The notes under the pieces: generated by a model
What the model was told of the DNA's origin: nothing
The model's database searches: none
Seen by the model: only the letters and a program-made list of their open reading frames with translations
From: Diacronema lutheri
Lineage: Eukaryota; Haptophyta; Pavlovophyceae; Pavlovales; Pavlovaceae
Assembly: GCA_019448385.1 (NCBI GenBank)
Contig: JAGTXO010000043.1
Coordinates: forward strand, 166,501 to 230,500
Direction: 5' to 3'
Length of the DNA: 64,000 nt
In this document: positions 1-22,607 of the stretch, one piece after another
Position numbering within the stretch: position 1 is the stretch's first letter
Layout of the letters: every line of letters begins with the position of its first letter
Made by a program: the position numbers and the translations under genes

Positions 1-3000
1 CGCGCGCGCGCGCGCGCTCGGTGCGGCGGTGAAGCTCGGCAGGCTCGCAACGGCGATCGCGAGCGCGTTGCCGTCCGTGCGCGCGCGCTCGTCGCGCAGT
101 TCGCGCAGCTCGTCCGCCCACGTGCGCACGGCCGTGTGCGCGCCGCGGCCGACGGCGGCGGCACCGTGCTCGCCGGTTGAGCCATCGGACGCGTCACCCT
201 CAGACGCCTCCTCGTCTGAGCCGCCCGCCTCCTCGCCACCGCCCTCCTCGACGATAATCCCGCCCGCGAGCGCGAGCGGGCGCCGTTTTGCGCGGCGCGC
301 GACCGGTGCCGCCGCGCCGTCGGCCGCGTCGCCAGCGGACGCGACGGCCACGTCGGCGCCGATGACGCCGCAGTCGCGCAGCAGCACGCGCACGCGCTCG
401 AGGCCACGCAGCCGCAGGAGCAGCCGCTCGACGCGCGTGCGCCTCGCCTTCTCCTCGGCCGCCTCCGCCTCGGCAGCGCCGCCCTCGCTGGCGTCGCCGT
501 CGTCGTCGTCTTCGTCGTCGTCGTCGTCGTCGATGTCGTTGTCGTCGTCGTTGTCGCTTTCGCCATTGCGCGCATCCGAGCCGCGAGCGCTGGCCGCGGC
601 GGGCGCAGCGTGCTCGTGCTCGTCGATGTCGCCGTCGGCGCCGGCCGAGAGCGCGGCCGCCGCCTCGGCGCGCGCGACGCGCACGTCGAGTGCGAGCAGC
701 GCGGCCGCGTCCAAGACGGGCGCTTCGCCAAGCGAGCGCGGCGCGGCGGGCGCGCCCGCATCGATCACGGCGCGCGCATTCCAACGGCGCACCGCCGCGG
801 CCTGCGCGCGCACGATCATCTCGCCCGCAGACTCAGCGGCTCGCTCGCGCGCGCGCCTGCGCTCGGCGGCGCGCGCGCGGGTCGGCAGGGTGGCGACCGC
901 GTCGGCGCCGGCCGCGTCGACGGCGGCGTCGGCGAGCCAGACGCTCCGCGGCAGCAGCACCGCGCCCGACTGGTCGACGCTGGCAAGCAAAACGGGCACG
1001 TGGTGCGGCGCACGTGCGAGCGAGCCGAGTCGCCGGCGCGCGCCTCGCACGCCGCCGTCATCAGCGGTCGGCGGCTCGCGCTTGGCGACGCGCGCCGCGT
1101 TGGCGCGCGCCACCTCAACCATGGTGGCCTGCTCCTCGCGCGCCGCGGCCGCGCGCACGGACGGCGGCACGCGCGCGCGCAGGCCGAGCGCGCGCAGCCG
1201 CGCGCGCGTCTCGCGCGCCGCGCGCGCGATCGCCGAGACGGAAGCGAGCGCGGCCTCGAGCTCCGCGGTGCGCGACGCGTCATGCGACTTGAGGCGGTGC
1301 AGCGCCGGGCCGAGGACGCGCCAGATCGCGCCGAGCTCGGACGGGCTCGGCGTGGGCGCGGGCGCGGGCGCGGGCGCGGCACCTGCCGTCGCCTTTGCCG
1401 CCCGCGCGACGCCGCCGCCGTCGTCGGCGCGCGCCGCGCCGTCCGCTTCGCCGTCGCGCGCCGCGCGCAGCGCACCCGCCACGGCAGCGACCGCGCGCGC
1501 GAGCGCGCGCGCGCGCGACGTACTCGGCGGCGGCACGTCGAGGCCAGCCGCGCGCATCGAGCGCAAAAAGGCAAAGCCGACGGCAAACGCGCGCGCCTCC
1601 GCGCGCGAGCTGGGCGGCACGACGAACGCGCGCCCGCCGCCCGCGCCGTCGGCGGCGCCGACGCCCATAGAGCGGTTCGGCGGCGCGCCCGTCGACGTGG
1701 GATGCGCGCCTGCCGCCGAGGCGAGCACGCGCCCGTCGATGGACGAGCGACGGCTGAGCGCGCCCGCGCCGACCGAGCTGCGCCGCGAGCCCGCGAGCGA
1801 GGCGGGGCGCGAGCCGGCCAGCACGAGCGGCGCGTCATCCACCGACGGGCGCGTGCCCGCCGAGCTCGCGCGGCGCGACGCGCGGCGCGGCGAGATGAGC
1901 CCGGCCATGGCGGACGACGCGGCGCACGAGACGAAGGAGGGCGAGGTGGCGGTCAGCTCTGCCGCGGCATGCACGGCGGCCGCAGCGGCCGCGCTGCCCA
2001 CGAGCGACGAACGTCGGCGCGCGGGCGCCGCCGCGCCGGCCCCGAGTGCACCTTTGAAGGGCACAGCTGCGGCTGGGCGCGCGTCCGACCAGGCGGCACT
2101 CGTCGAGCTGCGGCGATGGCGCCCGCCGCCGCTCGCGGTGGGCGCGGCGTCAACGCTCGCGCGCAGCGTGCGCGCACCGCCGAGCGCGCCGCCGGCTCCG
2201 CCGTCGCTCGCGTCGCCGGCGCGCGCGCCGAGCGACGCGCGCGCGCGCCGGCGGCCGCCGGGTGGGCGAATGGCGCGCGCGGGCGCGGGCGGCGCGGGCG
2301 GCGGGACGAGAGCATCGGGCGTGTCGAGCGGCACGGTGGCGATGAGGGCGAAGAGCGTAGGGAAGGCGCTCGCCGCATCGGCCGCCTCGTCCTCGCCAAG
2401 CCGCAGCAGCACGCGCAGGTTTGCGAGCAGCCGCCGCTCCGCCTCCGCCGCCCATCGCCGCTTGGCCGCGGCCGCGGTGAGCGTCGACGTCGCGCCACCG
2501 CCGCCGCGCGCGCCGCCGCCCGTCGCGGCCGCGCGCGCGCGCGCGCGCGCCTGCGCGCCCACGCTCTCGCCGCGCGCCGCGGCGGCCTTTGCGCGCCTGC
2601 GCGCGCGGTTGCGCTCGGCGGCGAGCGCGAGGTCGTGCCTGTGCGCAAACTGGCGCGTGATCTGCGCCTCGACATGCTCCGCCTCGGCTGCGGTCAGCAC
2701 GAGGCCGACCGCCGTGCTGCGCAGCTCGGCGGCCGCGCCCCACGCGCCGCCGCCGCCGACCGCCGCCGCGGCCGACGCGGACGCGTCGCGCAGCGCGCGC
2801 AGCCGGCCGAGCCGCTGCAGGAGCGAGAGGAGCGGCGCAGGCGGCTGGCTCACAAGGAGCGCAACCGGCGCATCGGTCACCATCGCGCGCACCGCCGCGG
2901 CGCGCAGTGTAACGAGCCACGCGGCCGAGTGCGGCGCATCGTACGCGTCCCGGTCGCGCCCGTCGGACGCGCCGCTCGCTACCGCCGCGCCGCCCCGCCG

Positions 3001-6000
3001 CGCGGCCGGCGCGCGGCGCGGCGGCGTCGTCGGCAACTTGGGCGCGCCGCGGCTTGCGCGGCCGAGCGCCGCCGCCGCCGCCGCCGCGTCGACGGCCGCG
3101 TCGTGCAGCGCGCCGAGCGCTCCGTCGAGCTCGAGCAGTGGGCAGCCGCACAGCGCCGCGCACGCGCGCGCGAGCGATCGACGGCCCGCGCCGGCGCGCG
3201 ACGCGACGAGCGCCGCCCATGCGCCGGGCAACGCGACCGCGCGGCGCACGGCGACGAGCGCAAAGAGGAGCGACGGCTCGCCGACCGAGAGCGGCGAGGC
3301 GGCGAGCGGCGATGGCGGCACGCCCGCCGCACCGCCGCCGTCGCCGTCGTCGCCGTCCGCGCCGTCCGCGAGGCGCGCGGCAAGCAGCTCGCCGAGCGCG
3401 AGCGCGTATTCTCGCGTGCTCACCGGCGCGAGCGGCGGCAGCGAGAGGGGCTCGAGCGTCGGCGGCAGCGGCGGTGACGGCTCGTGCGCGGCGCTCGGCG
3501 GCGCGCCACCTCCGGCCGCCGAGCCGGGCGCGACCGGCGGCGCAAGGCCGAGCGCCGCGCCGCGCTCGGCGGCGTAGAGCTCGTCGTCCGACTCGTCGGA
3601 CGATGGCGCAGCGCCGCCGTTCGCGCGTGACGCGCGCGCGTCGTCCGCGCCGCCCGCCGCGAGCGACGACGCGGCGGGCAGCGGCGCCTCGTGCGGCGCG
3701 CGCGCGCGGGCGCGCCAGAGCGGCGGCGCGTGGACGATGCCGGCGGATGCGGCCGCGGCCGCGTCTGCGCCGGCGTGCAGCTCTGCATGCAGCACGCCCG
3801 TCGCGGTGGCAAGCGAGGGCGCGTGCGCGCCGCCGCCGCCACGGCCGCCGCCGCCGACGTGCGCCACGGACGCGCCGCCGCCGTCCAGCTCCGTGTCGGA
3901 CGCGACAGCAGCGTCGGCTGGCAGCGCCTGCGCGCTCACAATCGCGCGCCGGATGGCGAGCGCGCCGTCGTACGCGCGGTCGAGCGAGGTGGGCGGCGCC
4001 GCGGCGGGCACCCACACGCGCTCGACGACGCGCGCGACGAGCGCCGCAACGCTCGTCGCCTCCACGCTCGTTGCGTCGCGTGCCTCGTCCGGCGCGACGC
4101 GCGCGCGCGGCGCGCGCGCGTACGGCGCAAACGCCGCGGTCGCCTCGCTCGCCCAGAGGAGCGCGAGCGAGACTGGGGCCGTCAGATCGGCGACGGGGAG
4201 CTGCGTGCTTCCGCCCGGGCCGGCGTCAGCGCCGCCCGCGCCGCGCTGTCGCGCGTCGACGCCGGTCGCCGGAGCGGAGGAGGCGGCCGACGGCGGCGCG
4301 TACGCGAGGTCGTCCGGCTCGGCGCCCGAATCGACGCCGGGCCCGACGCGCGCGCCGAGCGCGACGGCGGGGAGCACGCGGAGCAGCCGGACCGCGTCGT
4401 GCGCGCTCGGCTGCCGCGCGAGCGCGAGCGCGCCGTCGCACGCCGCGGCGCGCGCGCGCGCGGACAGCTCGGCGATCAGCCCGACCGTCGCGTCCGCCCA
4501 CGCGCGCGCGAGCTGGCCGCCGAGCACGGCGGTGTCGAGCTCGCCGTCGACATCGATCGCGGCGACCAGCGCGCGCGTGTGCGGCACGGCGCGCTCGGCG
4601 AGGATCGAGTGCAGCGCCGACGCGTCGAGCGCGCGCGCGAAGACGGGCGCGAGCCGGCGCGCGAACCGGCAATCGCTCAGCGCCGCCCATGCGCCGCGGC
4701 CGCCGCTCCCGCCGCCGCCCGTCGGCGACGCGGTCGCGATGATGCGCAGCGCAGGCGCGAGCGGTACGAGCGGCAGCGGCGTGTCGCGCCGGTTGCCCGC
4801 GTGCGCGCCGTCGAGCAGCGCGCGCACCGCCTCGAGCGCCGGCGGCGGCGCGCCGCCCGGCCGGCCGCCGGCCGCTCCGCCTCGGCCGCCGAGCATCGCG
4901 GCGGCCGCGTTACGCGGCGCGTCGGCGGGCGCGTGCGCGAGGTGCACGTCGTCGATCATGACGAGCAGCCGACGCGCGGCGGCGACCGAGCGCTGCGCGC
5001 CGCTGCCGCCACCGCCGCTGCCGCCGCCGCCGCCCAGCGCGGCCGCTCCATCGTTTGGCGACCGCACGGCGCGCGCGCCAAACGCGCGCAGCCGCGCAAG
5101 GACGCCCGCCGCGCGCGTCGTGCCGTCCACGTCGAGGAGGCACGCGCGCGTGCCGCTCTCGCCGAGCGCGCCGGGCAGGCTGCGCGCCGCGCCGCCGCCG
5201 CCGCCCGCCGCGCCGTGCGCGCCGCCGACCGCGAGCGGCGCGCGCCCAAAGAGCGCCGCGCGCACCGCCTCCGACTTGCCGCACGCGCCCTGCCCCCACA
5301 CGAGCGCGTGCGCGCGGCCCGCGCGCGCGAGCGCGAGCACGTGCGCGCGCACCGCGTCGGTCTGCGGCGTGTCCACCCACAGGAACGTGCCATCGCCGAG
5401 CAGCGCGCCGCCCGCCATCGGCTCGGCGCCCGCCGCTGCGGCCGCGCGCCGGCCGACCGTGAGCGCGCTCGCGCGCAGTGCGGCCGCCGAGTCCGGCGCG
5501 TGCGCCGCCGGCCCCAGACCGGCCGGGTGGGTGTCGTGCGTCGGCGCGCGCGGCAGCGCGGCCGCGGCCGCGGCCGCGTGCGGAAAGAGCGCGGGCACGA
5601 GCGCTCGGGAGCGTGGCTCGTACTCGTAGTCGAAGACGGACAGGAAGGCGGCCGAGTCGCGCTCGTCGAGCGCGCCGTCGGACACGCCGACGCCGCCGGC
5701 GGCGCGTGACGCGCGCGCGTGCGCGTCGGCGATGTGGTACCACGGCGCGCGCTCCGCTTCGGCGGGCAGCGGCAGGCACGACAGGTGCGCGCGGCACCAC
5801 GCGTCAAAGGCGCCGCGGCCGCGCGCGCCGTCGGCGAGCACGCCGCCGAGCGCGCGCACGAGCGCGAGGGCAAAGTGGACGGGGAACGCGGCGCGCAGCG
5901 TCTCGGTCGAGAGCGGCGAGATGGCGTCGCCGTCGAGCGCCGCGCCGAGCAGAGCGACGAAGCCCTCGGTGAGCGCGCGCGCGCCCGTGCGCAGCGGCCG

Positions 6001-9000
6001 GTCCACGTCCGCGCCGAGCACGAAGCGCAGCGCGGGCAGCCAATGCGACCGGACGAGCGCGAGGCAGAGCGGCGCGAGCATCTCTGACGAGGGGAGCGCG
6101 CCGCGGCCGGCGGTGGGGCTGTCCGACGCGGCGGCTGCCGCGGCGGAGCGCGCGCGCGCCGCACTGCGCGCAGCGGCGGCGGCGCCGCCGCCGCCGCCGC
6201 CGCCGCGCTCGCCGTCCGCGCGCGCGCCCATTCGCCGCGCGTGCGCATCGGCCGTCGCGGCGACGCGCGCGGTGGCCGCGGCGGCCGCCTCCGCCGTGTC
6301 CGCCGCGCCCGACCAGGCGGGCAGCAGCCCGAGCAGCGCATGCACGAGTGCGCTCGCGCCGCCGCACTCGTCCTCGCCCACGTCGAGCAGCGCGACGCCG
6401 GGCGCGAGGAGCAGGGCGGGCGACGCGTGGGCGAGCGTCACGGTCTCGATGATCAGGCGGCCGCGCGCTGTCGGTGGCGCGCGCGCGCCGACACGAGCGC
6501 TCGCACGGCCGTGCGGCGCGCCCGCGTTGAGGAGAAGGCGTTCGGCCCATCCGCCCGACGCGCCCGCGCCGAGCGCCGCCGTGTCCAGCACGGGCCAGAT
6601 TGTGATGGTTGAGTTCGAGGCGGCGGCGGCGGCGGCGGCGGCGGTCGTCGTGCCGTCGGGCGCGGCGCCGGCTGCGCCGCTCGCCGCCATCCCGCTTGCG
6701 CCCCAACCGTCACCGCCGGCGCCCGCAGTGCCAACGTCGGTCGCGGCGAGAAGTGGGCCGACGCCCAGCCGCGGAGCATCGCACGCCAGCCCACCGCCGC
6801 CGAGCTGCAGGCCAGCGGCCTCCACCTCCGCGTCTGCGGCGCGTTCGGCCGACTCCGCGTCGTCGCACGCGTCGAGGCACACGAAGCGTGGCACGTGCGA
6901 CGGCTCGGCGGCGGCATCCGCGCCAGCGCGCACGCCACGGCCCGCGGCCGCCGCGCCACCGCTGCCGCCGCCGCCACCGCCGCCGACCAATCCGCCGCCG
7001 TGCGGCGCGCGCAGCCGGGACAGCCCTCCGAGGAGGAGGCGAACAAGCGCAGACTTGCCGGCGCCGCTCGGCCCGCACACGACGAGCACGCGCGCGCCGT
7101 CGCGGCTGAGCGCGTCCCAGCGCGCGTCCTCGCGGACCGCCGCCGCGTCAGCCTCCGCTGCCGCCGCCGCGGCCGCCGCGGCTGCCGCGAGCGCGCGCGC
7201 GTGCGCGCGCGCGGGCGCGCGCAGCAGGCCACCCATCAGCACGGGCGCAAGCGCGCCGAGGCGCGTGAGCGGGCGGCCGGTCGGCGCGGCGGCACCGGCA
7301 GACGGCGGCTGGGCGCGCGCCGCGGGCGGAGCCGCCGCCGCGGCCGCCGAGCGGACGCCGCCGCGGGCGAGCGCCACGGCGATGGCGGCCGCATCGCGCG
7401 CGCGCTCGGTCGCCTCGCGCGCGTCGAGCATGGCGCGCAGCAGCTCGTCGCCGCCATGCTTGCCGAAGGCGGCGGCGAGCAAGTGCGTCGCCTTGGCGAG
7501 CTGCGCGGGCGCGCACGCCCATCCGCGCGACGCGCTCTCCTCGCACAGCGCCGCCCCAAACGCGCCGAGCGCCGCCTCGCGCCGCGCCGCGCGGGCGAGC
7601 GCGTCGCGCGCGTCGGCCGCGCCTCGCCGCTCGTGCGCCGCCGCCGTCGCGTCGCGCTCCGCCTCAGCGCCGGCGGTGTCGCGCGCGCGCCGCGAGCGCA
7701 GTGCGCCGGCAAAGACGCCGGCGGCGGTCGAGCCGTCCGTGCGCTGCCCGAAGGATCGCGGCGCGCCAGACGCGTCGGCGAGAGGCCCGTCCGCGCCATC
7801 CGCGGCAGCAGCCGCCACGTCGCCCAAGCCGCCCACCACGTCGTCGGCCTCGCCGTCGCCGTCGCCCTCGTCGCCGTCGTCGCCCTCCCCCTCGGCCTCA
7901 TCCACGCGCGCGGCGCCGCCGTCGGCTCGGCCGCCGCCGTCGGCGCCGTCAGGGCTGCCGCCGCCTCCGCCGCGCGCGAGCGCGGCCGCGAGCGCGCCCT
8001 CGAGCGACGCGGCGGCAGTTGCGGCGCTCGGGCCGCGCGCGGGCGCAAAGGCGCGGCGCACGCGCAGAGTGGCTCGGCTTGCCGCGGCCACCGCGGCCAG
8101 TCCTGGCGCGTGCGCGTCGAGCGCGCCGGTCGCGCCCGCGCCGCGCGCTCCGCCGTCGCTGGCGGCCGCAACGCCGCCAAGCAGCGGCACTGCAGCCTCT
8201 GCGAGCGCTGCCGCGTAGCCAGCGACGAGGAGGGCCGCAGCGTGCAGCGCGAGCAGCGGCGGCAGCCGCGGCTCCGCGTCGCGCGCGGCGTCGGCCCGCT
8301 CGAGCGCGGCGCTGCGCGACGATTCGGCCGCGCGCGCGAGTTCGCGCATCCGCGGCCCGCCCGCGCCTCCGGCGGCGCCGCCCGTCCCGCCCTCGCTCCC
8401 GCCCGGCGAAATTGCTCCGCCGTAGGCAGCGTGCGCGCCGCTCGCGCCGCGCGAGCCCGTCCGCGCGTGCGCGAGCACGGAGCGCAGCGTGCCGCCGCCG
8501 TCCTCGCCGCACGCCGCACCGCCCCCGCCCGACTCGCCGCCGCAGCTCAACGAGCCCCGCACCGAGTCGCGGCTCGGCGCGCCGCGTGCGGACAGCGCGA
8601 AGCTGCCGCTGCGCGAGCACGCGAAGGAGCCCGCCGAGCACGCAAAGGAGCCGCCGCCCTGGCCGCCGCCGACCGCGCTGCCCGCCGCGCGCCGCTTCGC
8701 GCCGAGCATGTCCGCAATGTCCGCGAGGAGCGCCCCGTCCGCCGCCGCCATCGCATCGGGCGTGAGCTCGAAGCGCGCCACGCCGGCGCCAGCGCGCGCG
8801 CCACCGCTGCCCTCGCCGCGCGCGAGCGCGCGCGCTGCTTCCTCGTGCCGGTCTGCCGCGGCGCGCAGCATCCGGCGCAGCGCGTGCACGCTCGACGAAG
8901 GCAGGCTCACGCCGAGCGAGCGCGCGGCCGAGACGATGCCCGTCACGGACACGAGCGGGCCGCCCGCCGAGCTCACGCGCGCCGTCGCGAGCGCCCGAGC

Positions 9001-9523
9001 GGCGGCGATCGCCGCCTCGTCGTCGTCGTCGTCCACGCCGGCGGCTGCGGCCGCGTCAGCGCCATCGTCTACGCCGGGCTCACCCGCGCTCGCCTCGTGC
9101 GCGCCCGCTCGCGCGCCCGCCTCCGCCTCCGCCCCCGCCTGCACCTGTGCCCCCGCCTCCGCCGCGTCGCTCTCCGCCTCGGCCGCCGCGCGCAGCACCT
9201 CGCTCTCCGCCGCCGCGCGCTCAACCGCCGCGTGCGCCGCGAGCGCGCTCGCGGTGTGCGTGGCAAGGAGCAGCGAGAGGATCATGCCCGCGCCAGAGCG
9301 CGAGCGCGTGAGGCTCGCCTCCGCCTCGGTCTCGAGCGTCGCGGCTGCCGCTGCGCGCACAGCCGCGCGCGCGCCGTCCGCGCCGTCCGCGCCGTCCGAC
9401 GGCGCGCACGCCGTGCCCGATGCGAGCGCGCGTGTCGGCCGTGCCGCGCACAGCAGCGCAACCGTGCGCGCCATCGCCGCCTCGTCCTCGCTGGCCTCCG
9501 CCAGCGCGAGCGTTGCGCGCGCG

Positions 9524-9562
<39 letters not shown>

Positions 9563-12500
9563 GCCGCTGCGCCGTCCTCGCCGGCGAAGGCGGCGGCGGC
9601 CGCGCTGCTCACCTCGAGCGCGCGGCGCGCCTCGGCGGCCGCGGCGGCGCGGCGCCGCGCCATGGCGACCGCCAGCGCGCCGTCGGCGAGGGCCATCGCG
9701 CGGGCGACCGCGCGCGCGACGTCCGCGCCGCCATGCGCACCGCCGCCGTCGCGGCCGCCGTGCGCCTCGCCCGCGGCGTCGCCATCGGCCACCGCGCCGG
9801 CGGCGAGGCTGGCAAGCTCGCGCACAAGTGCGAGCAGCAGCCCGCCGTCGGCGTCGGCGTCGCTGCCATCGCCGCCGCTGGCTGGCGCAGCGCTCCACGC
9901 GCCCGCGCTCGCCGCGGGCGCGACGATCGGCGCGAGTACGTAGAAGAGCGCGAGCGCGAGGTGCGCGTGGCTGGTGAGCGCGGCGGCCTCGCCGCCGAAC
10001 AGCGTGCCGCCGCCGCTGCCGCCGCCGCCACCGCCACCGCCACCGCCGCCCGCGAGCGCGCGCGCCGCGTCACGCGCGCTCGTCGCGGCGCGTACCGCGC
10101 GCGCGAGCACGGTCGTCGGTGCAAGCGCGCGGAGCAGCGCGCCGCGCGCTGCGCCGCCGCCGCCCCAGTCGGCGGCGCCGAGGGCGCGCACGCCGCGTAG
10201 CGCGGCGGCGAGCGCCTCGGCCCACACGGCGCACCGCCGCGCCGAGCCCCAGCCGCGCGCGTGCAGCTCGGCGGCGCAGACCGCCGCCGCGTCGGGCGCG
10301 GCGAGCGCGACCGGCCTCACGAGAGACGCGAGCTGCGCGGGCAGCGGCGGCGCGTGCGGCGCGCGCCCGCCCCAGCCGTCGTCGGCCGCCGCCGCGTCGA
10401 TGGCGGCCACCGACGTACCCGCGCCGCGCGCGCGCGCGCCGCGCTGCACGCCGCCAACGCCGCCGCTGCCGAGGAGGTGGAGGGGGGCGTCGACGCTGAG
10501 CGTGAAGACGCCGCACCGCCGGCCGGCGCGGCGCGAGATTGCAGCCGCGGCGTGCGCATCGGCGGCGGCGGCGTCGGCGGCGAGCGCGGCGGAAGCGGCA
10601 GCGGCGGCGGTCGACGCGGGCTTGCGCCCGAGCCCCGATGCGCTCGCCGCAAAGACGCCCGTGCTGTCCGCCGCCGCCTCGAGTGCGCGCAGCATCTGCG
10701 CGTCAGCGCGCGCGTCCGCCGCGGCGCCGTCGGCGTGCGCGCCGCTGTCGGCGGCGGCGGCGAGCGCGCCCTGCACAGCGCGCAGCGCGCGCGTGAGGCC
10801 GACGAGGCCGCCGCCCGCGCCGAGCGCCACGCTGCCCGTCAGCGCGCCGCCCGCCGTGCCCTCGAGGCGCGGCGGCCGGCCGCCGCTGCACGCGATTGCG
10901 GCTGCGCGCGCCGCGGCGCCCGCCACGCCGTCGCTGCCGCCGCCGCCGAGCGCGCGCAGCGCAGCGAGGCCAGAGGGCGTCAGGTGGCCCCAGCCGCCGC
11001 ACAGCCCCGTGCTCGCCACGGCGAATGCCCACCGCTCCAGCGCGATCGCCGCCTCACCCGCGCGCGCGCCCGCGACCACGCTGGCCGCGGCGCGCTCCCG
11101 CGCGTCCTCGCCCGCGCCGCGCGTCGGCTGCGCGCGCGGCGCGGGCACGGGCGCGTGCAGCCAGAGCCGACCGCAGAGCGCAGCGAGCTGCGACGCTACC
11201 TCCGCCTTGCCCGCGCCCGACGGCCCGCAGAGGAGCGCCGCGCCGCCGCCGCGCGCCTGATCGGCTGCGGCGCGTATGAGCGCAAGCTGCGCGCTCGCCG
11301 ACGCCGGCACGTGCGCGCACGGCAGCTGGCCGCACGCGACGAGCTCAAAGCCGACGCGCAGGCGGTGCCCGAGGACGGCCAGCTCGTACGTTGGCAGCTC
11401 GGCGCGCCATGCGCGCGCGCGCGAGCGCGCACGCGCCGCTGCGTGCCACGCGCTGTCTCGCCGCGCCGGCGCCGGCGAGGGCGAGGGGGAGGGCGAAAGC
11501 GAGGGCGAGGGCGAGGGCGAGGGCGAGGGCGAGTGTGAACGCGAGGGCGTGCCCGGCGGCAGGGCGACTGCGAGCGCGTCGCCCGCCGCACCGGCCGGCA
11601 CGTCCGTCGCACCGCTCGCGCTCGTCGCGTCGCCCGTCGGCGCGCCCGCGGCGGGCGCGGGCTCGGGTGCCGCGCCGGCCGCGCCGGCCGCGCTGGCCGC
11701 GCGACCGCCGCCGAGCGCGTTGGACGCGTTGGACGCGTCGGACGCATCGGACGCATCGGACGCATCGGACGCGTCGGACGCGTCGTCGTCCGACCAGCCG
11801 CTGCACTCGCGCGCGCGCTCGCCGCCGCCGCTGCCGCCCCCGTCGCCGCCGCCGCCGCGCAGCCTCGCCTGCACCGCCGCCTCCGCCTCGGCGGGCTCGG
11901 CCCACCCGTGCCGCAACAGCAGGCCGACCGACAGGGCCGCGCGCGCATCGCCGTGCGACGGCGCAGCGGCGCGCGGCCGCACACCGCCGGCTGCGCCGGC
12001 CGCGCCGGCCGCGGCGAGCTGCGCGGCGCGCGCGCCAATCGCCGCCTCGGCGGCATCCACCTCGATCCACTGCAGCGTCTCGTCGCAGAAGGCGCGGCCG
12101 GCGCTCACGAGCGCGGCGAGCGCGGCGCGCGCGGCACGCGGCTGCGGACGGCGCGCCGCGTGCGAGGCGTGCGCGTCTATGATCGCTGCGAGCTTGGCGC
12201 AGAACGCGCGCAGCGCCGGCGCCGCCGTGTCCGCACCCGTGTTGCCGCCCGCACCGCCGCCGCCCGCACCGCCGCCGCCCGCACCCGCCGGCGGCGCCGG
12301 CGGAAATGCGTCCGCGACAGCCGCGGCGAGCAGCGCGTCGCGCTGGTGCGACCATACGATGCGCAGCGCGCACACGAGCGCCGCGCCGTAGCAGCCGCGC
12401 GGCACGGCCCACGGTTCCACCGCGCCGCCCTTGGCCGGCACGGCCGCCTCGCGCGCGCCCGCGCCTCGCGCGCGCGTGCCGTCCGGCTCGGCGTGCGCGA

Positions 12501-15500
12501 GGCGCCAGCCGCCGTCAGGCAACGGCTGCCACGCGGCGTACGCCTGCGCCAGCTGCTCGGGCATGGGGCAGTAGGGCGTGCCGCTGTTCGCGCCGCGCGC
12601 CGCCGCCGTGCCGCCAAGCGGCCCCGCCTCCGACGCCCACACGCTCGGCTCGTCGAGGCACACGGGCAGGGCGAGCGACCGGCTGGGCGGCGGCATCGCG
12701 CGCGCCGGCAGCGCGCGCGCGAGCTCGGCGGCCGCGTCGGCGTCCCGCGCGCCCGCTGCCGAGCAGCGACCGGCCGGCGGCGCGGCGCAGCCGTCAGGTA
12801 CGGCGCTGCCGCCCGCGTGCGCGGCCACCCGCGAACTGGCTGCGGCGCCCGCGCGCGCGGCGCTGGCGTCAGCACGAGCGTCGCCGCGACCGTCGCGCGC
12901 GCACGCGCCGGCCGCCGTGTACGCGCGCGCCGCGCCGCGCGCGGCGAGCGCGGCGGAGTGCTCGCTCGCCGCGGCCCACGCGTCGAACGCGGCGAGGCGC
13001 CACGAGATCTCCGAAGCGACGGAGCACAGGACCGTGCGCTCGAGCTCGCGCACCCATGCCGCGGGCGGCGCGCTGCCCACGCGCACGCGCACGCCGCCGA
13101 CGGGCGTGCCGTACGCCGCGCCGACGGAGGCCGAGTCGGCCGCAGCGACGGGCGCAGCCGAGCGCGGCACATAGCGCGGCACGAGCCGTAGTGCCTCACC
13201 AGAGCCGAGCAGCACGCCCGCGAGGCGCAGCGGCGGCGCGCGCTCGCCCGGCGCGGCGGCGTGCGCGCGGCGCGCCGCCCGCGCAGCCGCGGCGGCCGTG
13301 GCGTCGGTTGGCGCGCGCTCGGGCGCGAGCAGAAGACAGAGCGGGCCGGCGACGGCCGCGCGCGCGCCGGTGCCCGCGAAGAGCGTCGTGAGCGGCTCGG
13401 CGAGCAGCGCGGAAGCGGCCGGAGCGAGCACGCACCGCTCGCGCGCCCACGCGCCCTCCTCCGCCTTCGACGCGCCCTGCGCCTCCGTCTGCCGCTCCGC
13501 GCCCTCGGCACGCGCGTGCGGCGCGCCGTCGGCGGCAGACGCGGCGGACGCGAGCTCGGCGCGCGCGCGCAACGAGAGCGGCGGCACGCGCGCCGACGTC
13601 GCCGCGGCCGCAGCGGCGAGAGCGATGCCGCAGCCGCCGCCCGCGGCGGGCGCGCGGCCCGTGCGCTCGGCCGCACGCGGCGGCGAGACCTCGGCCGCGG
13701 GCGCGGCCGCGGCTGCGACGGCACGCTCGGCACGCTGCGCGCCCGCGACAGCCAGCGGCAGCGGCGCGACGGGCGCCGGCGCGAGCATCGGCGTCGTCGC
13801 GAGGGCGCACAGCGCGAGCAGCGCGCCGTCGCCCAGCGCGTACGCGCGGCCGAGCGAGCCGCGCCAGCCGCCGCCCGCGCGCGCGCACGCGTCGCTGAAG
13901 GCGGGGTGGCGGAGGAGCGCGAGCGCGTGCGCCTGCACCGAGCCGAGCAGCGCGTCGAGCGCGTACCGCCGATCGCCGCTCCCGCCGCCGCCCGCCGCCG
14001 CGGCGCCGTCGATGGCGCCCGCCGCCGGCGGCTCGTGCGAGGTGGCGAGGCCATTGTGCGCCGGCGAGCGCGCGAGCGCGAGCGCGGCGAGCACAGCTCG
14101 CGCCTCGGCCTCGACAACACGGCAGCGGCGCCACAGCCGGCGCAGCGGCACGTGCGGCGTGCCGCCCTCGCCGCGCGCGCCGCCGCGCGCGACGGCCGCG
14201 TCGAGGCGCGCGCGCCGCTCGCCGCTGAGCGAGGCCGCTGTGATCATGAGGCCGTGGAGCCGCTCCCGCGCGGCCTGCAGCCTCGCGGCCTGGCGCAGCG
14301 CGCCCGCCGCATCGGCGGAGAGCGCCGCGAGCGTGCGCAGACGCGTGATCAGCTCGGCAGGCGAGAGCGCGCCGCCATCGTCCGCACCGGCGGACGCACC
14401 CTCGGCCGCCGAGCCGCGCTCGGCGGAGATCGCCACCTCGCACACCGCGCGCGCGCTCTCGAGCAGCGCCTCGGCCGCGGCCGTGTCGCCCACGCCGATC
14501 GTGACCGCCCACGCGCTCGATGTGCCGCCGCCGACGCCGTCGGCGCCGCCGACGCTGCCGTCCAGTCTGCCGCCCGCGCCCGCCCGCCCACCGTCGATGA
14601 GCACGAGGAGCGCCCGCCGCTCGGCGCCCGCAGCGCCGGCGGGCGCGGCGCCGACGCGCTCGAGCGCACGCGCGATGGTGGGCAGACATCGGCGCAGCGA
14701 GAAGTAGACGCTCTCGCCGCCGCCCTCTTCAGGCATCGGCGCGAAGCCGTCGAGCGCGCGCTCCGCGCCACCGGCCGCGTCGGGCGCGCGCGCGCCCGCG
14801 TGCGCGGGGATGTGCGGCGCGTGGTCAAACTCGAGGGCGACACCGCGCGCGCTCGCCGCGGCGGCGGCTGCGGAGTAGCTCAGCTCGCCGCCCTTGATCG
14901 CCGCCAGCGCCGCGCCGTCGCCCTCGCCGCGCGCGCGCGCGCGCCGCGCGCGCGCCGCGCCGGCGGCCGCGTCCGCGTCCGCGCCGGCGCCGGCGCCGAG
15001 CAGCTCGACGGCGGTCGCAAAGAGGGCGGAGCGGAGCGCGTCGGCCTCGCGCGTGTCAAGCGCGCGCGCGGCGAGCGGCTCGACGCGCGCCGCCTCGACG
15101 GCCGACGCGCACGCACGCGCCGCGCGCGCGCCGCTCGCGTCGCGCCAGGGGCCAAGCGCAGGCGCGGCGGACGCGACGACCGGAAGCGCTGCGCGCGCGG
15201 CGCGCAGCATCGCGTCGACGTGCTGGAGCGAGCGGACGAGAGCGTGCGTGCGTCTCGCCTGCGCGTGCACCGCCGCAATCTCCGCCGTGAAGTGGCCAAT
15301 GCCGTGCCGCAGCAGCTCGCTCAGCCTCATGCCGTCGTCAAACGCGTCGGCGCCAGCCGCACCCCCCCGCGCGCGCTCGCGCGCGCCGTCGATCGCACCG
15401 CCGGTACGGCGCGCGACGGCGGCGAGCAACGCCTTCCAGTGCAGCGGGCCCATGCACTCCGCCGTGAGCAGCGAGATGGGCACCATCGGCCCGCGTCGGA

Positions 15501-18500
15501 AGCGCTGGACATTTCCGATCGTGTCCGACAGCACCGAGCGCAGCAGGCCGCGCCGCTCGCGCCGGCGCGACACGGCGGCGCCAGCGGCGCGCGCGGACAG
15601 CGGTGCAAGGACAGGTGGCGGGCCGTCGCGCGTGCCGTCCGCCTCGCCGCCCGCCGTGCCCGCCAGCGCGCGCGCGCCGCCGCCGTCCGCGCGAGAGGCG
15701 GTGCCGAGCAGGTCGTCACCATCGTCGCTACAGCCGCTGCCATCGTCGTCGTCTTCGCCACTGCCCTCGCCGCTTCCGACGCCATGCTCGCTCGACGCGC
15801 CGTCCGCGCGCGTGCCGCCATCGCCGCTGCTTGCATCGCCATCGCCGCCCGCGCTCTTGTCGTCGTCGTCCTCGTCCGCGTCCGCGTCCGTGCCGCCGAG
15901 ATCGTCGTCGTCCAGGTCGGCGCCGGCGGCGCCAGCGTGGGGCGCGGCGGGCTGCGCCACCCACTCGCCTCCCGGCGCGAGCTCCGCCTCGATGTCCGCC
16001 TCCACCGCCGCGTCCGCGGCCGCGTCGTCCGCGCGGACGGCGCGCAGCACGGCCTCGACGTCCGCCGCCGCCTCGTCCGCCTCCCACGCGCCGCCGCGCA
16101 GCCGCTCGGCAAGGCTCGGGCGCGCGCTGCCGAGCCAAAGCAGCACGCTCGACCCAACGCCGTCGCCGCCGCCGACCGCGCGCGCGCCGTCGCCGCCGCC
16201 GCCGCCGCCGCCGGCGGCTGCCGCGTCGGCCAGGCGCGCGGCGAGCGCAGCCTCGGCCGCCTCGGCGCTGGCGCACGCGCGCTGCAGCGCGCGCAGACGC
16301 GCGCCGAAGCGCGCGGCGAGGTCGACGACGGGCAGTTGGCGCTGGATCGCGCCGAGCGACTCTGCCCACAGCAGCGACTGCAGCGCGCGCCACTCGCGCA
16401 CGACCTGCCACGCGTGCACGGCGAGCGACGCAAGGCGCGCGGCGAGGGCGAGCGGCACGTGCGCGTCCGCGCGCACGCCGAGCGTCGCCTGGTAGCGGCA
16501 GAGGCGCGGCGCGCGCACGCGCAGCAGGCCAAGCGCCGCGTCGCGCACCGCCTCCGCCTCGGCGAGGGCCGCGTCCGCGTCAGCGTCCGCTCGCGCGAGC
16601 GTCGGCGCGCGCAGCCGGCGGGTGAGCGCGCGCGCCTCGGCGGCCACGGCCGCGGTCGCGGTCGCGAGCGCGCGCGCGTACTCGGGGTGCAGCGCGCGCG
16701 TCTCGGCCGCCGCCGCCGCCTGCAGCGCGGCGAGCTGCGCGAGGAGCGACGCGAGGAGCCCGCGTGGCGGCGAGGGCGCGCCGCCGTCGACCGGCGCGTC
16801 CGACCGCTCGATGGGGCGCGGCAGGAGCGGTTGGCCTCCAAACTCGAGGATGAGGCCTTCGGCACCGTCCATGTCAAGCCACGCGCGCCGCGCCGCCGCC
16901 ACCTCGCCGTCGACGCGCGCGAGCCGCTGCAGCCACGCGACGTACGAGGCGAGGTCGTGCGCGCTCGCACCCATGTGCCGCAGCGTCGCGTGCACGGCCT
17001 CGAGCAGCGATTGAGCGACAGGCGCGAGCGCCGCGCCGAGCTGGCCAATGCGCGCCGCGCACGCGGGCGGGAAGCGCGGCGCGTCGAACGCGCGTGCGCC
17101 CGGCGCGCCGAGCGCGCCGAGCGCAACGCCGCCGCCGCTCGCCGCCGCCGCCGCGTGCTCGGCGGTAAACGCGGCCACGTCGGCGCGCGAGAGGCGCGAG
17201 GCCGGCGCAAGGCTGAGCTGCACCAGACCCACGCGCGCGTGCGGCGGAAGCGCGGACGGCGCGAGGTGCGCCTCCCACAGCGCAAGCGCCTCGAGCTCCG
17301 AGCGCATCTCGCGAAGCAGCCGCGCCCAGCGCGGGTCGCCAAAGGGCGGCAGCCGGCCGTACCGGCCGGCAACGCGCGCGCGCGGCGCGAGCACGGGCGC
17401 GGGCGCGCACGCGGCGCCCGCGCTGGCGCCCAAGGCGTCAGTACCGGTGGCGCTGCCGCCGCCGCGCTCGGCGCGCCCGTCCGGCGGCGCGGCGGGCGCG
17501 TCGACACTCGTGCCGCCCAGCCGCGGCCGAGGCACGATGGCCGCGACGACCGCCGCGCGCTGCGCGAGCAGCGGGCCGACGACCGCATCGGCCGCGGCGC
17601 GCGAGCGCTCGGCCGTGTCGGCGAGCGCGGCGCAAAAGTCGGACCACGGGAAGAGGTCCGTGCCCAGCGTCGCCTCGAGCACCTCCGCCGAGCGCCGCGC
17701 GCGTAGCCGGCCGCCGCCCGACCCCCAGCCGTCCGACGAGACGGCATCGAGGCGAAGCGCGCGCGCGTCGGTGCCGCTCGGCGCGGCGCGCGCGCCGGGC
17801 GGCGCGCGCGCGCCGCCGGCGCCAGCGCCAGCGGAGCCGGACTTCCGCCGCGGCTTGGGCGCGCTGCGCGCGCGGTGGGCCGAGCGCACAACGCGCGCGC
17901 GCGTCGCGCCGGCGCCTGCGCTGCCCGCGCGCTCGGCGGCGGCGGTCGCCGGCGCTGCACGCGCGCCCGCGCGCGACGCCGAGCGCGCGCGCGCGCCGCT
18001 CGGGCCCAGCGCGTCGGCGACGAACACGCCGGCGCGCGCGAGCGCCGGGAGGGTGCGCAGCGTCGCCTGCGCGACGGCGACCGCGTCGGCGTGCGCGGCC
18101 GCGCTAGGGGCGAGCGCTTTGCGCAGCTCGCGCGCCGCGGCGCTGGGCAGAGGAAGCGCGGACGGCGCGGCCGCCGAGATGCCCGTCACGTTCACCGGTG
18201 CCGCGCCCGCGAGCTCGGCCGCCGCGCTCGCGAGCGCCGCCGCCGCCGCCGCGGCGAGGGGCCCGCTGCCGAGCGCGGGCGGCGCGGCCGCACGCGCGCT
18301 CGCCTCGCCGGTCAGCTGCGCGGCGACGAGCCCGGCCGCGCTCGCCGCCGCGCGCACGCCATCCGCGCCGCCGGCGCTGCCAAGCGCGTTGCCCGCATTG
18401 CCACCGTCCGCGCCGCCGCCGCGCTTCATGCGCGCGGGTGGGTCGCGCGCGAGAAGGCGCGCGACGGGCGTGAAGTGCGCGAAGGCGCAGGGCGGTTGCA

Positions 18501-20595
18501 GGGCGACGACCGCCGCGCGCGCGCACGCCGTGTGCATCGCCGCGAGCGTGCTCGCGGACGGGACGAGCTGCAGCTCGGCGTCGTGCTCGGCGTCGTGCTC
18601 GGCGTCGTTCGCGCCGCCAAAGCGCGCGCGCGCCGCCTCCGCCGCGGCGGCGGACGCCGCGGCGCCGGCACCGCTCGCGTCGCCATCGCCCCGTCCTCTT
18701 CCTTGGCCACCGTCGTCTGCGCCGACGGGGTCGTCGTCGCTCGGCAGGAGGCGGTGGCGGAGGGTGACGAGAACGGGCATAAGCGGCGGCGCGGGCCAGC
18801 GCTCGTGCAGCGCGCTCAGCGCGCCGCCCACCGCGCTGAGCGCGTCCTGCCGGCCCGCCGCGCTGTGCGCGCCGCCGCCGAGCGCGCCCGCCGCGCCGCG
18901 CGACGACGCCGCACCGGGCGCGGCGGTCGCGTCGGCGCGGCAGCCCTCCGGCGTGGCGGTGTCCGGGCCGCCCGCCTTGCTCTCCGCCGCCGCCGCGGCC
19001 ATTGTGGGCGCGGGCCGCGTGAGGAGCAGCGCGCGCGCGGCCGCCGGCTCGGGTACCGCCGCGCGCACAGCGGCGGCCGCCGTGCGCAGCAGCGCGGCGG
19101 ACGCGTCGACGGCGGCCTCAACAAAGAAGAGATGGATGAGGCGCGCGGCGCGCGTGAGCAGCGCGCGCCGCCACTCGTGCACGTGCTCGAGCGAGCCCGC
19201 CTCGCCCGGCGAGACGGTCAGACCGTCACCATCGACGCGCGGCGCAGCGGCGTCGAGGTGCGCGACGAGGAAAGTCGCCTCGAAAGCGCGCGCGGCGCCG
19301 TCGGTGCGCCTGCGCACACGATCCATGAGCATGCGCGTGTGCGCGCGCGTTGCGAGCTCGAGCGCCGGCAGCTCGCAGAAGCTGCCGCCGCCGCCGCCCG
19401 AGTCGTGCAGCGCGCGCAGCGCGAGCGCTGCCGCGTCCGCCATGGGCGACGTCGCGTCGTCGGCGGCGCGCGCGAGCGAAGCGTGCGTGGGCAGGAGCGC
19501 GAGCTCGCCGCGCGCCGCATCGTCGTGCAGCGCGTGCGCCGCCTCGCGGCTCGCGCAGACGAGCGCGCGCACGCAGCCGACGGTGAGGAGCAACGCGTTG
19601 GCGCCCAGCCACGCGCGCGCGCGCTCGAAGCGCGCGGAGCGCACGAGGGCGCGCCACGCGCTCAGCCGCGCGCGCAGCGAGTGGAGGCGAGGGTTGGCGA
19701 TGCGCGAGACCACGTTGGCCGAGTCGATCAGCTCCACCCACTCCGCCAGCGAGTAGACGCTGCCCGTGTGCGATGCGCCGTGAGGCGCGCGGCGGCCGCC
19801 GCCGATGCCGCCGCCGTCGCCGTCGCCGCCGCCGCCGCTGCGTCCGTGCCCGTGCCCGCGCCCCGCGCCGCCAGGACCAGCCGAGCTGCCGTGGCGCGCG
19901 CCGTCACCGCCGCCGCCATCGCCGTCGCCGTCGCCATCGCCACAGCCACCGGTGCCGCCGCGCGACTGGCGGGCACTGCCGGTCGCGCGCAGCCGCTCGC
20001 CGAGCACGACTCCGCGCGCGCCGACGACGGCAAACTCGTCGCCCCACACGATGGCGCCGCTCGCCGCCGCGACCGCCGCGCGCGCGCAGGCGCAGCCGCC
20101 CGGCGCCACGCCACCCGCGAGCGCCGCGCCACCCGTGCCGAGCGCGGCGGCGCACGGCGCAAGATAGCCGCCGCCAACGTGCATGCACGACGCGAACGCC
20201 GCATCCGACAGCCCGCCACGCGCGCCGCCGCCACCGCCACCACCGCCGCCGTGCGCGCCGCAGTTGGTCGGCACGGCCCTGCTGCCGCTCGCCGCGTGTG
20301 CGCCGCCTCCAACCTCGGGAAAGACGCACACGCGCTCGGGGAACGGGGCGAAGAGCGCGCACGCGGGCACGGTGCGCTTCGCGGCGATGAAACCAAGCGA
20401 CGCGCTGCTCAGCGCCTCCGCGCGCTGATGCGAGCTGGCCGGTGCGCCGTGCTGTGGCGAGATGGCGCCCCCGCCTCCGCACCCGGTGGCGCCGCCGTCC
20501 CTCGCGCGAGGCGCGCGCCGGCCCGCGCTCGGCGGTGGTGCACCAGGCGCGAGCGCGTCGGCCGCGTGCGCGTCACTGCCGCCGCCGCCGTCCGG

Positions 20596-20626
<31 letters not shown>

Positions 20627-21495
20627 GCACGCGCGTACAGCGTCGCGCTCGGCGCGCGCATGCCGTGCGTTGTAAGGGACGGCGGCGCGAGGGGCGGCGG
20701 CACGAGCGTGCCGGATGTCGGCCGGCGCTGGCGGGCAACCATCTCGGAGAACCACGGCGACGAGTCGCTGGCGCGGCGCCCAGGCGCGCATGCAACGGCG
20801 CTCATCTCGCCACCCTCGCACGCGCCGGCGCCGCCACCCACGCCCGCGCCTCCCACGGCCGCCGCGCCGCTCTCGGCGGCGCCGGCGGCGCGCTCATCGC
20901 CCGCGCCGCTGTCGGCGCCGTCGGTGGCGCGCGCTGCGGCGCTGCCGGCCGCCGTGCCGTGGCTGATGGCGTGCGCGGGCGCGCGCGCCGGCGTGGCGCA
21001 GCTGCTCGTCGGCGCGGAGCACGCGGCGTCCTGCGCGGTGAGGAGCATGTCGTCCGTGCTAGCGACGGGCACAAAGTCGGAGCGGCGCGGGCGGCGCGGC
21101 GGCAGCTGGAGCATCTTGGCCAGCGCGTCGGCTGACGCGTCACGCCCCGGCTCGTACGTCGGTACGCCCGGCGCCGCGCGGCCCACCGACCGCGCGCGCG
21201 CGAGGTCGGGACCAATGCTCGCGCCGCGCGCCTCGCGCGCGCGAGAGACTGGACGCGCACCACGCACAGCCGCGCCAGCGCCGTCGGCTGGCGCCGCGGC
21301 GTCGCCGCCGGCGCCGCCGGGCGCGCCGGGCACGGCCGACGCGGCGGACGAATGCGCGCGCGCGCCACGCAGAGGCGGCCCCCCGATGCCGGCGGCGATC
21401 GGCGCAGGCAGCGTGAAGAGACCATCCGTCGGCTCGGCGAGCGACAGGGTGCGCTCGACGCGCTTCAAGTGCACGCCAGCGCTCGGTTCTGTCAT
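1..21495 (-). CDS. Giant divergent dynein heavy chain, N-terminal 7,165 codons (3' end off window)
   Basis: Starts at ATG 21495 (MTEPSAGVHLKRVER). The frame stays open without a stop to base 1, so it is intronless here and continues off the left edge. The N-terminus is Ala/Gly-rich and low complexity. A linker-like (DHC_N2) stretch lies at 2017-2080 (MGPLHWKALLA, then LSELLRHGIGHFTAEIA). AAA1: P-loop GPSGAGKAE (3424-3432) and a dynein-type LFRPVAM/PDY segment read as RPVALAAPD (3727-3735). AAA2: P-loop GPSGAGKS (4808-4815) and IIETVTLAHASPALL from 5014, matching the family ASPATVSRCGM region. AAA3: GQGACGKSE (5401-5409), Walker B VMIDDV (DD 5515-5516) and DCRFARRL near 5610. AAA4: degenerate SRAGAGRRSL near 6098-6107, against the usual GVGGSGKQSL. 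Typical dynein heavy chains are about 4,000-4,600 residues with AAA1 near 1,850, so this one is greatly expanded. It would act as a microtubule minus-end motor, probably axonemal. The dynein assignment is firm; the subtype is unknown. Confidence 0.8.
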
Positions 21496-21766: not shown

Positions 21767-22607
21767 TCAGCTGCTCGCCTTGGCCGATGCGATCGCCTGC
21801 TCGAGCGTTTGCCGCTTGAGCGCCTCAAGCTCGTTCTCCGAGCGCAGCCGCGCGATCCGCTCCTTCTGCAGCCGCCATTGCAGCTCCTCGATCTTGCCCT
21901 CAGCGACGGAAACGCGGTCGCTCGATCGGATTGAGACGGACGGTGCGGCGGTGCGACCCGTGCGCGCTGCGCAGGGTGGACGCGCGCCGTTGGAAGCCGT
22001 CGCCGGGGCGCGGTCGAACGCGGTCAGAGCCGCGGCGCGCGCGCTCACGCGTCACGCGCTCGGCGCGCGTGTGGCTGTGCGAGGGCCCGCGCGCGCACTT
22101 GACCGGCCATCGTCGCCGCCGCCGCCGTATCTGCTCGAACGGTATTGCGTACTCTCGCGCTCCGAGGCCGCACGCGAGCTGCGCCCGTCCGAGCGCGCCG
22201 CCGATCGCGCGTCGGAGCCCGCGCTCGAGCGCGCGTCGTCGTTGCGCGCATAGCCGCCGCGCGTCTCCGCGTCGCGCAGGATGGGGCCGCCGGGCTCCGA
22301 GTAGCCGTGCGCGCCGAGGCTGCGTTGTGAGCGCGCCTCGTCGATCGCGTCGAGCCGGAAGTTCTCCTTGGCGATCCGCTCCTTCCAGAAGGCCGCGCCC
22401 TGCGCACGCGGCAGCGCGACACGGCAGGCGGCGGCGCGGCGCGCGTCATCTCGGCATGCCACGGTGTGCGTGCGCCGCGGCGCGGACGCGCGGGGCGAAC
22501 GGATGCGCAGGTTTGAAGCGCACGTGCCGCTCTTGTTGCCGGCAAGGCCGGGCGCGCGCGGCTCGTGCGGTGCGGCGCCTCACGTTCACCGTGTGCAGGC
22601 GCGACAT
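21767..22607 (-). CDS. Small coiled-coil protein, three exons, function unknown
   Basis: Read backwards: exon 1 from ATG 22607 (MSRLHTVN...), exon 2 22399-22099 and exon 3 21966-21767 (TGA). The second intron (22098-21967) is well supported: donor A|GTGCGC in phase 1 and acceptor CTGCGCAG restore one frame. The exon 1 end is ambiguous; donors after MSRLHTVN or after RQQERH both give phase 0. Exon 2 encodes AAFWKERIAKENFRLDAID, then a Ser/Arg/Asp-rich stretch. Exon 3 ends in a predicted coiled coil (KIEELQWRLQKERIARLR, then ENELEALKRQTLEQAI). No family was recognised. It starts 30 bp from COG7 on the other strand, so the two probably share a promoter. Confidence 0.6.

Follow-up and report, generated by a model that had tools for sequence, protein, structure and literature searches.

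What could be encoded by a reading frame that runs for thousands of codons without a stop, and could its product still be a motor? The question is raised by a stretch of the genome of Diacronema lutheri (contig labelled C39, positions 166501–230500; assembly of 43,492,796 bases in 103 contigs), whose whole length of 64,000 nucleotides is referred to below as the window. The giant frame on its minus strand is itself designated C39, and its residues are counted from the ATG. Profile matches support C39 as a dynein heavy chain by descent, from the linker to the C-terminal domain, and its AAA1 site looks dead, the loss of the motifs being seen in alignment.

In the window the frame starts with an ATG at position 21495, an in-frame TGA lying two codons 5′ of it, and is still open at the window edge after 7,165 codons. 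It was followed past this edge by adding 40 kb more of the same contig leftward; the extended frame comprises 10,502 codons up to a TAG stop at C39:156489–156487, with no N in the sequence. A preliminary description of this DNA had reported a single uninterrupted frame of at least 7,165 codons, without an intron so far, and had proposed the leftward extension. The frame is borne out, with no stop in its 10,502 codons and a coding GC pattern throughout. Its product was rightly expected to be about twice the size of a usual dynein (it is more than twice) but not to end near 9,000 residues. To our knowledge, no longer dynein heavy chain has been described.

Long open frames are common in such GC-rich DNA (GC 0.76–0.83 over the window part of the frame, in 2-kb steps; 102 open reading frames of at least 250 codons listed in the window), and C39 was therefore tested against chance. 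The GC content at codon positions 1, 2 and 3 amounts to 0.835, 0.691 and 0.910, a ranking (position 2 lowest, position 3 highest) that holds in each of the 34 successive blocks of 300 codons fully contained in the frame. Given the positional composition of the frame, 59 stops would be expected, or 84 from its base composition, and none is observed; the other five frames over the same stretch carry 70, 75, 24, 22 and 81. The open frame is not due to chance. Among 523 windows of sixty codons (step 20), only four have a lower GC at position 3 than at position 2, and alanine, glycine, arginine and serine abound in their translations. With so even a periodicity no sizeable in-frame intron shows, and the gene is apparently intron-free and complete. 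On the 3′ side of the stop, an ankyrin-repeat-like protein could be recognized by eye in another reading frame, so that C39 appears to end where the gene ends. The published genome of strain NIVA-4/92 comprises 43,502,671 bp in 103 contigs with 73.25% GC, as given in the main text of its description (PMC8379373), where the word "dynein" does not occur.

Descent from dynein heavy chains

Pfam models were run on tiles of 253–556 residues, earlier runs having been made on larger pieces. DHC_N2 was matched at residues 2007–2098 (E 0.19, under the curated cut-off; E 0.42 on the larger piece), AAA_6 at 3717–3756 (E 2.1e-5, 24.1 bits against a cut-off of 25.2) and Dynein_AAA_lid at 5162–5253 (E 0.018), i.e., in dynein order along C39; generic P-loop models were found around residues 4800–4825. 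No dynein model was listed for the remaining tiles, Dynein_C itself was not listed, and no family was listed for residues 1–3165 in the large-piece run. Four dynein AAA modules in order had been read in the preliminary description, with a Pfam search of residues 3300–6200 suggested as a check. In this range AAA_6 and Dynein_AAA_lid do follow in order, both sub-threshold, and all four modules, AAA1 to AAA4, were located there by the profiles described below.

The whole-length chain score against a dynein profile failed to separate C39 (z 6.0) from midasin (z 8.2 for C93, the midasin frame of this genome), and block profiles were adopted for this reason. For the 45 blocks, dynein heavy chains encoded in this genome were used (two ordinary dyneins, seven AAA1 loci and the long dyneins C48a, C48b and C5, the last two by their first part only), with 60 local shuffles, the reversed frame and C93 serving as controls. 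All 60 shuffles were beaten by 19 blocks, with less than one expected by chance, and 15 of these lie in dynein order; nine of the 45 are without any match in C39. The 12 blocks above 5 bits, three of which are overlapping neighbours of the other nine, each exceed all 60 shuffles and without exception follow the order from the linker to the C-terminal domain. AAA1 to AAA4 stand in order in one chain (blocks at 3362, 3717, 4765, 5009, 5125, 5374 and 6080), the AAA3 and AAA4 assignments being based on P-loop blocks that are matched by midasin too. These collinear matches support the identification of a dynein heavy chain made in the preliminary description. A separate Dynein_C profile matched residues 10065–10120, about 380 residues before the stop (10.3 bits, E 1.5e-5 in a search of one sequence), the best of 50 shuffles reaching −0.7 bits.

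The stalk, AAA5, AAA6 and C-terminus had been expected beyond AAA4. A recognisable C-terminal domain does precede the stop, but the other parts appear too diverged to be demonstrated: AAA5 and AAA6 profiles gave z 0.44 and 0.95, and those of the stalk with its microtubule-binding tip z 1.7 and 1.8. A weak AAA5/AAA6 match is located near residues 7273–7292 and another at 7645–7661, with a mapping that differs between the two scans. An acidic run (NDDDNDIDDDDDDEDDDDG; residues 6982–7000, window 496–552, minus strand) lies past AAA4 and ahead of the presumed AAA5, at the place expected for a stalk. Candidate motifs of AAA5, AAA6 and the stalk could be spotted by eye, but they are not put forward as evidence.

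The similarity of C39 to dyneins is barely detectable. The results of single-sequence searches are dominated by glycine-, alanine- and acidic-rich stretches, and comparison of C39 with the other four giant frames by BLASTP gave nothing at 1e-4. A canonical full-length profile produced one match (3.9 bits at 3718–3756), which was gone after masking. An iterated full-length profile was swamped by low-complexity columns; its best matches lie in order (15.9 bits at 3717–3756, 0.5–0.6 bits at 5322–5416 and 6076–6129). The entropy mask covers 5,154 of the 10,502 residues, tandem repeats make up 2,638 of the 31,506 bases of the frame, and the P-loops of AAA1 and AAA2 are 1,384 residues apart, compared with 282 in the dynein C82p.

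The AAA1 site and related dyneins

The AAA1 Walker A of C39, GPSGAGKAE, falls on the canonical GPAGTGKTE with threonine replaced by alanine, and ALERWAF falls on the Walker B CFDEFNR with DE replaced by ER, as judged from a MAFFT alignment and from reading beside other dyneins. The sensor-I asparagine of ITMNPG is absent on either alignment, whether CGVFTLSV (by eye) or the stretch chosen by MAFFT is considered. The arginine of LVRPVALAAPD, which we take to be that of sensor II, is kept. The intact combination of AAA1 Walker A, Walker B and sensor I of a working motor is not present in C39. A low-confidence structure model places one strand at 3482–3487 (AAIALE), just before R3488, and another at VFTL, in agreement with the motif reading by eye. 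Since the catalytic motifs have been lost, it would be unsafe to take C39 for a working motor, a point missed in the preliminary description. Hydrolysis at AAA1, which powers known dyneins according to PMC8754002, has presumably been lost.

The other sites are better preserved. AAA2 keeps the Walker A GPSGAGKS, and AAA3 keeps both a Walker A (GQGACGKS) and a Walker B (LLVMIDD), so nucleotide could still be bound at both. Lysine accounts for only 43 of the 10,502 residues, yet it occurs in the Walker A motifs of AAA1, AAA2 and AAA3, which argues for constraint.

Matches to DHC_N2 elsewhere in the genome were grouped by us from 30 pieces into 24 places, C39 not being among them. AAA1 was readable in 12 of the 24. 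It is intact (CFDEFNR or CLDEFNR) in nine (L001–L006, L008, C82p and C82m; mostly the best-scoring places and so not a fair sample) and without the full motif set in three (C48a, C48b and C5), which brings the decayed sites to four with C39. The decay is graded, mild or partial in C48a and strong in C48b and C5; the ends of the C48a and C48b frames read like introns. AAA1 of C39 shows 31–35% identity to these three, compared with 20–24% to four canonical dyneins, and an AAA1 tree joins C39 to C5 at 87/86, the shared composition inflating both the identity and the grouping. Another outer-arm chain of D. lutheri, KAG8462790, is discussed in PMC12338079.

Among known systems, the outer-arm gamma heavy chain/DNAH5 (PDB 7kzm_C) has the same order of linker, AAA1–AAA4 and C-terminal domain as C39, and the tails of C48a and C48b, as well as that of the intact C82p, match its class best. 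It differs in length (4,485 residues compared with 10,502), in its catalytic AAA1 motifs, which are lost in C39, and in its tail, of which nothing is recognisable in C39. The human orphan dynein heavy chain gene DNHD1 is dynein-related like C39, a likeness by description that does not imply orthology. Its ATP sites are degenerate, and we know of no giant expansion of it. PMC8754002 separates it from the 15 heavy chain genes of humans and suggests that it is a ghost gene. Midasin (Rea1) is, like C39, one very long chain of AAA+ modules. C93 shares the composition of C39 but differs from it in having lid domains, none of which is listed in C39, and in reaching at most 3.0 bits at the linker, AAA1-end, AAA2 non-P-loop and Dynein_C blocks.

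A possible role of C39 and competing explanations

The explanation that appears somewhat better than even (probability about 0.56) is that C39 is an inflated pseudo-motor, a protein of dynein descent that has lost AAA1 hydrolysis and acts as a structural or regulatory partner in flagellar arms. It would have originated by duplication of a dynein heavy chain, would then have lost ATP hydrolysis at AAA1, and its length would have approximately doubled via in-frame GC-rich low-complexity insertions between and within domains. The resulting head would be dynein-shaped and devoid of an AAA1-driven power stroke, but still able to bind nucleotide at AAA2 and AAA3. Its partnership with the active heads of flagellar dynein arms, and its location there, are suggested by analogy. 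More tentatively, C39, C5, C48b and C48a could constitute a pavlovophyte set of inflated pseudo-dyneins, in which AAA1 was lost stepwise and other sites were kept, serving as non-motile nucleotide-sensing heads of the flagellum or haptonema. A dynein of more than double the usual size that had lost its power site and kept its frame would show that dynein heads can be retained for something other than force. With graded decayed paralogues in one genome, the requirement for each part of the ring in a non-motor could be addressed, and C39 illustrates how much a protein may grow under strong GC pressure with its frame still open. No paper on the C39 gene or on AAA1-dead haptophyte dynein heavy chains was found in the literature, most subscription papers being out of reach.

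A number of results weigh against the pseudo-motor or the dynein descent on which it depends. No Pfam dynein model reached its curated cut-off anywhere in the frame, phmmer of three pieces (residues 1951–10498) against the PDB returned no dynein at E 10, and the whole of C39 scored below its own shuffles in the iterated full-length profile. Four of the 19 shuffle-beating blocks do not fit the order (1140, 1460 and the overlapping 3140/3220 at residues 578–629; 4.6 bits at most). Residues 6121–10066 do not stand out from shuffles (z 0.8 and 1.4), the positive control C5 giving z 2.3 and 3.5 over the AAA4-to-C-terminus stretch. AlphaFold models of C39 pieces are poor (pLDDT 36.8 and 41.6), and Foldseek with the C39 model found no match at E 0.001 or better. 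In the AAA1 tree, the branches of C39 and C5 exceed 4 changes per column and composition is biased. None of the 12 gamma-type tail blocks lies above all 60 shuffles in C39, a result that does not exclude so diverged a protein from the gamma class; with its tail unmatched, no dynein class can be assigned to C39 itself, and a flagellar role is attributed to it by analogy. C93 outscores C39 at the P-loop blocks of AAA2 (13.1 and 6.0 bits, respectively), AAA3 (19.8 and 7.5) and AAA4 (12.0 and 7.2), so that P-loop blocks alone do not say dynein. Being of the same composition yet clear in Pfam, C93 also indicates that composition does not excuse the drift of C39, which has gone further in the core too.

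Alternatively, C39 could be a ghost gene, as has been suggested of human DNHD1, i.e., a duplicated dynein that is losing its function and whose frame is kept open only because truncated products are harmful. The extreme sequence drift, the lost AAA1 motifs and the absence of a detectable tail would be accounted for, and this explanation gains weight, at the expense of the pseudo-motor, from the strongly recognisable domains that C93 keeps at the same composition and C39 does not. However, AAA1–AAA3 retain their Walker A lysines, and AAA3 its Walker B, in a protein with 0.4% lysine, the C-terminal domain is still recognisable, and 10,502 codons contain no stop; moreover, the midasin frame (K 0.4%, A 28.6%) shows that alanine/glycine drift alone does not equal decay. 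The ghost gene is the main competitor of the pseudo-motor and is considered rather unlikely. A working unconventional motor, with hydrolysis shifted to AAA3 or AAA2, could be proposed on the grounds of the motifs retained there (GQGACGKS and LLVMIDD; GPSGAGKS), but it is improbable, since known dyneins are powered by AAA1 (PMC8754002) and a microtubule-binding stalk could not be demonstrated in C39.

Splitting of the matches to other dynein genes of this genome into exon-like pieces would be consistent with an artefact, produced by an assembly error or by several exons and in-frame introns being read as one frame. The coding periodicity is nevertheless even over the whole frame (the 4 odd windows of 523), and the assembly is based on about 315-fold PacBio coverage, with polishing by Illumina reads (PMC8379373, main text), which makes this origin quite improbable. 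Midasin or another giant AAA+ protein would be compatible with the high chain score of C93 and its advantage at several P-loop blocks. In C93, Pfam finds AAA_5 in nine stretches (E 2.3e-100), together with midasin AAA lid domains that exceed their cut-offs. With K 0.4% and A 28.6%, C93 is alanine/glycine-rich like C39 and shares its arginine drift, so that such drift is not peculiar to decayed dyneins. On the other hand, at six non-P-loop blocks (linker, AAA1-end, AAA2 and C-terminal) C39 attains 6.6–27.6 bits and C93 no more than 3.0, and midasin lid and VWA models are absent from the Pfam tiles of C39 (residues 1793–10498), the same library finding lids in C93. The midasin of this genome is a separate frame, C93, and this identity of C39 is very improbable.

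Coordinates and neighbouring frames

Table 1. Features of C39 and of other long frames of the genome (window coordinates unless a contig is given).
Feature	Coordinates	Strand	Evidence and remarks
C39 frame, window part	1..21495	−	Residues 1–7165 of 10,502; continues to TAG at C39:156489–156487
N-terminal tail, residues 1–1950	15646..21495	−	No detectable similarity to the gamma-type tail (tail class compared)
Linker (DHC_N2) remnant, residues 2007–2100	15196..15477	−	Pfam E 0.19; block 2037–2100 12.5 bits, shuffle maximum 1.1
AAA1, residues 3362–3800	10096..11412	−	Block 3362–3444 20.8 bits; MAFFT alignment
AAA1 Walker A GPSGAGKA (canonical GPAGTGKT)	11203..11226	−	Lys kept, Thr lost
AAA1 Walker B position AAIALERWAF, residues 3482–3491 (canonical WACFDEFNR)	11023..11052	−	MAFFT and reading by eye; Asp-Glu to Glu-Arg
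AAA1 C-terminal part, residues 3717–3760 (LPAQLASLVRPVALAAPD)	10216..10347	−	AAA_6 E 2.1e-5; block 27.6 bits, shuffle maximum 6.9
AAA2 Walker A GPSGAGKS, residue 4808	7051..7074	−	Block 4765–4830 6.0 bits; generic P-loop Pfam models
AAA2 segment aligned with the ASPATVSR region, residues 5009–5087	6235..6471	−	Block 6.6 bits, shuffle maximum −0.3
AAA2 lid, residues 5125–5253	5737..6123	−	Dynein_AAA_lid E 0.018; block 5125–5238 11.0 bits, shuffle maximum 2.2
AAA3 Walker A GQGACGKS, residue 5401	5272..5295	−	Block 5374–5418 7.5 bits
AAA3 Walker B RLLVMIDD	4948..4971	−	Kept; assigned by eye
AAA4 P-loop RAGAGRRS, residue 6100	3175..3198	−	Block 6080–6121 7.2 bits, shuffle maximum 3.0
C-terminal domain, residues 10066–10119	beyond window	−	Block 10.5 bits, shuffle maximum 4.7; Dynein_C profile
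C48a, long dynein	C48:295513–312255		5,580 codons stop to stop; Walker B LDEL present; threonine of Walker A and sensor I gone
C48b, long dynein	C48:412586–433117		6,843 codons stop to stop; Walker A GRG, Walker B LLRGAHA
C5, long dynein	C5:452010–473339		7,109 codons stop to stop; Walker A GKC, Walker B position VLKHIDA
Midasin C93, loci L026–L028	C93:75768–98297	+	7,509-codon frame; Pfam-confirmed

Upstream of C39, a short coiled-coil-like frame was noted by eye on the same strand (window about 21767–21930, minus), its end lying some 270 bases short of the dynein ATG. It is followed on the opposite strand by a match to COG7 of the Golgi complex (window 22638–23885, plus; E 8.1e-22). Further along the window, a piece of glutamate synthase (46015–46956, plus; Glu_synthase E 5.2e-16) probably represents one exon, and a frame of 1,265 residues (47969–51766, minus) carries a DNA-binding domain of the AP2 type (E 2.6e-9), together with a ZZ finger that stays below threshold.

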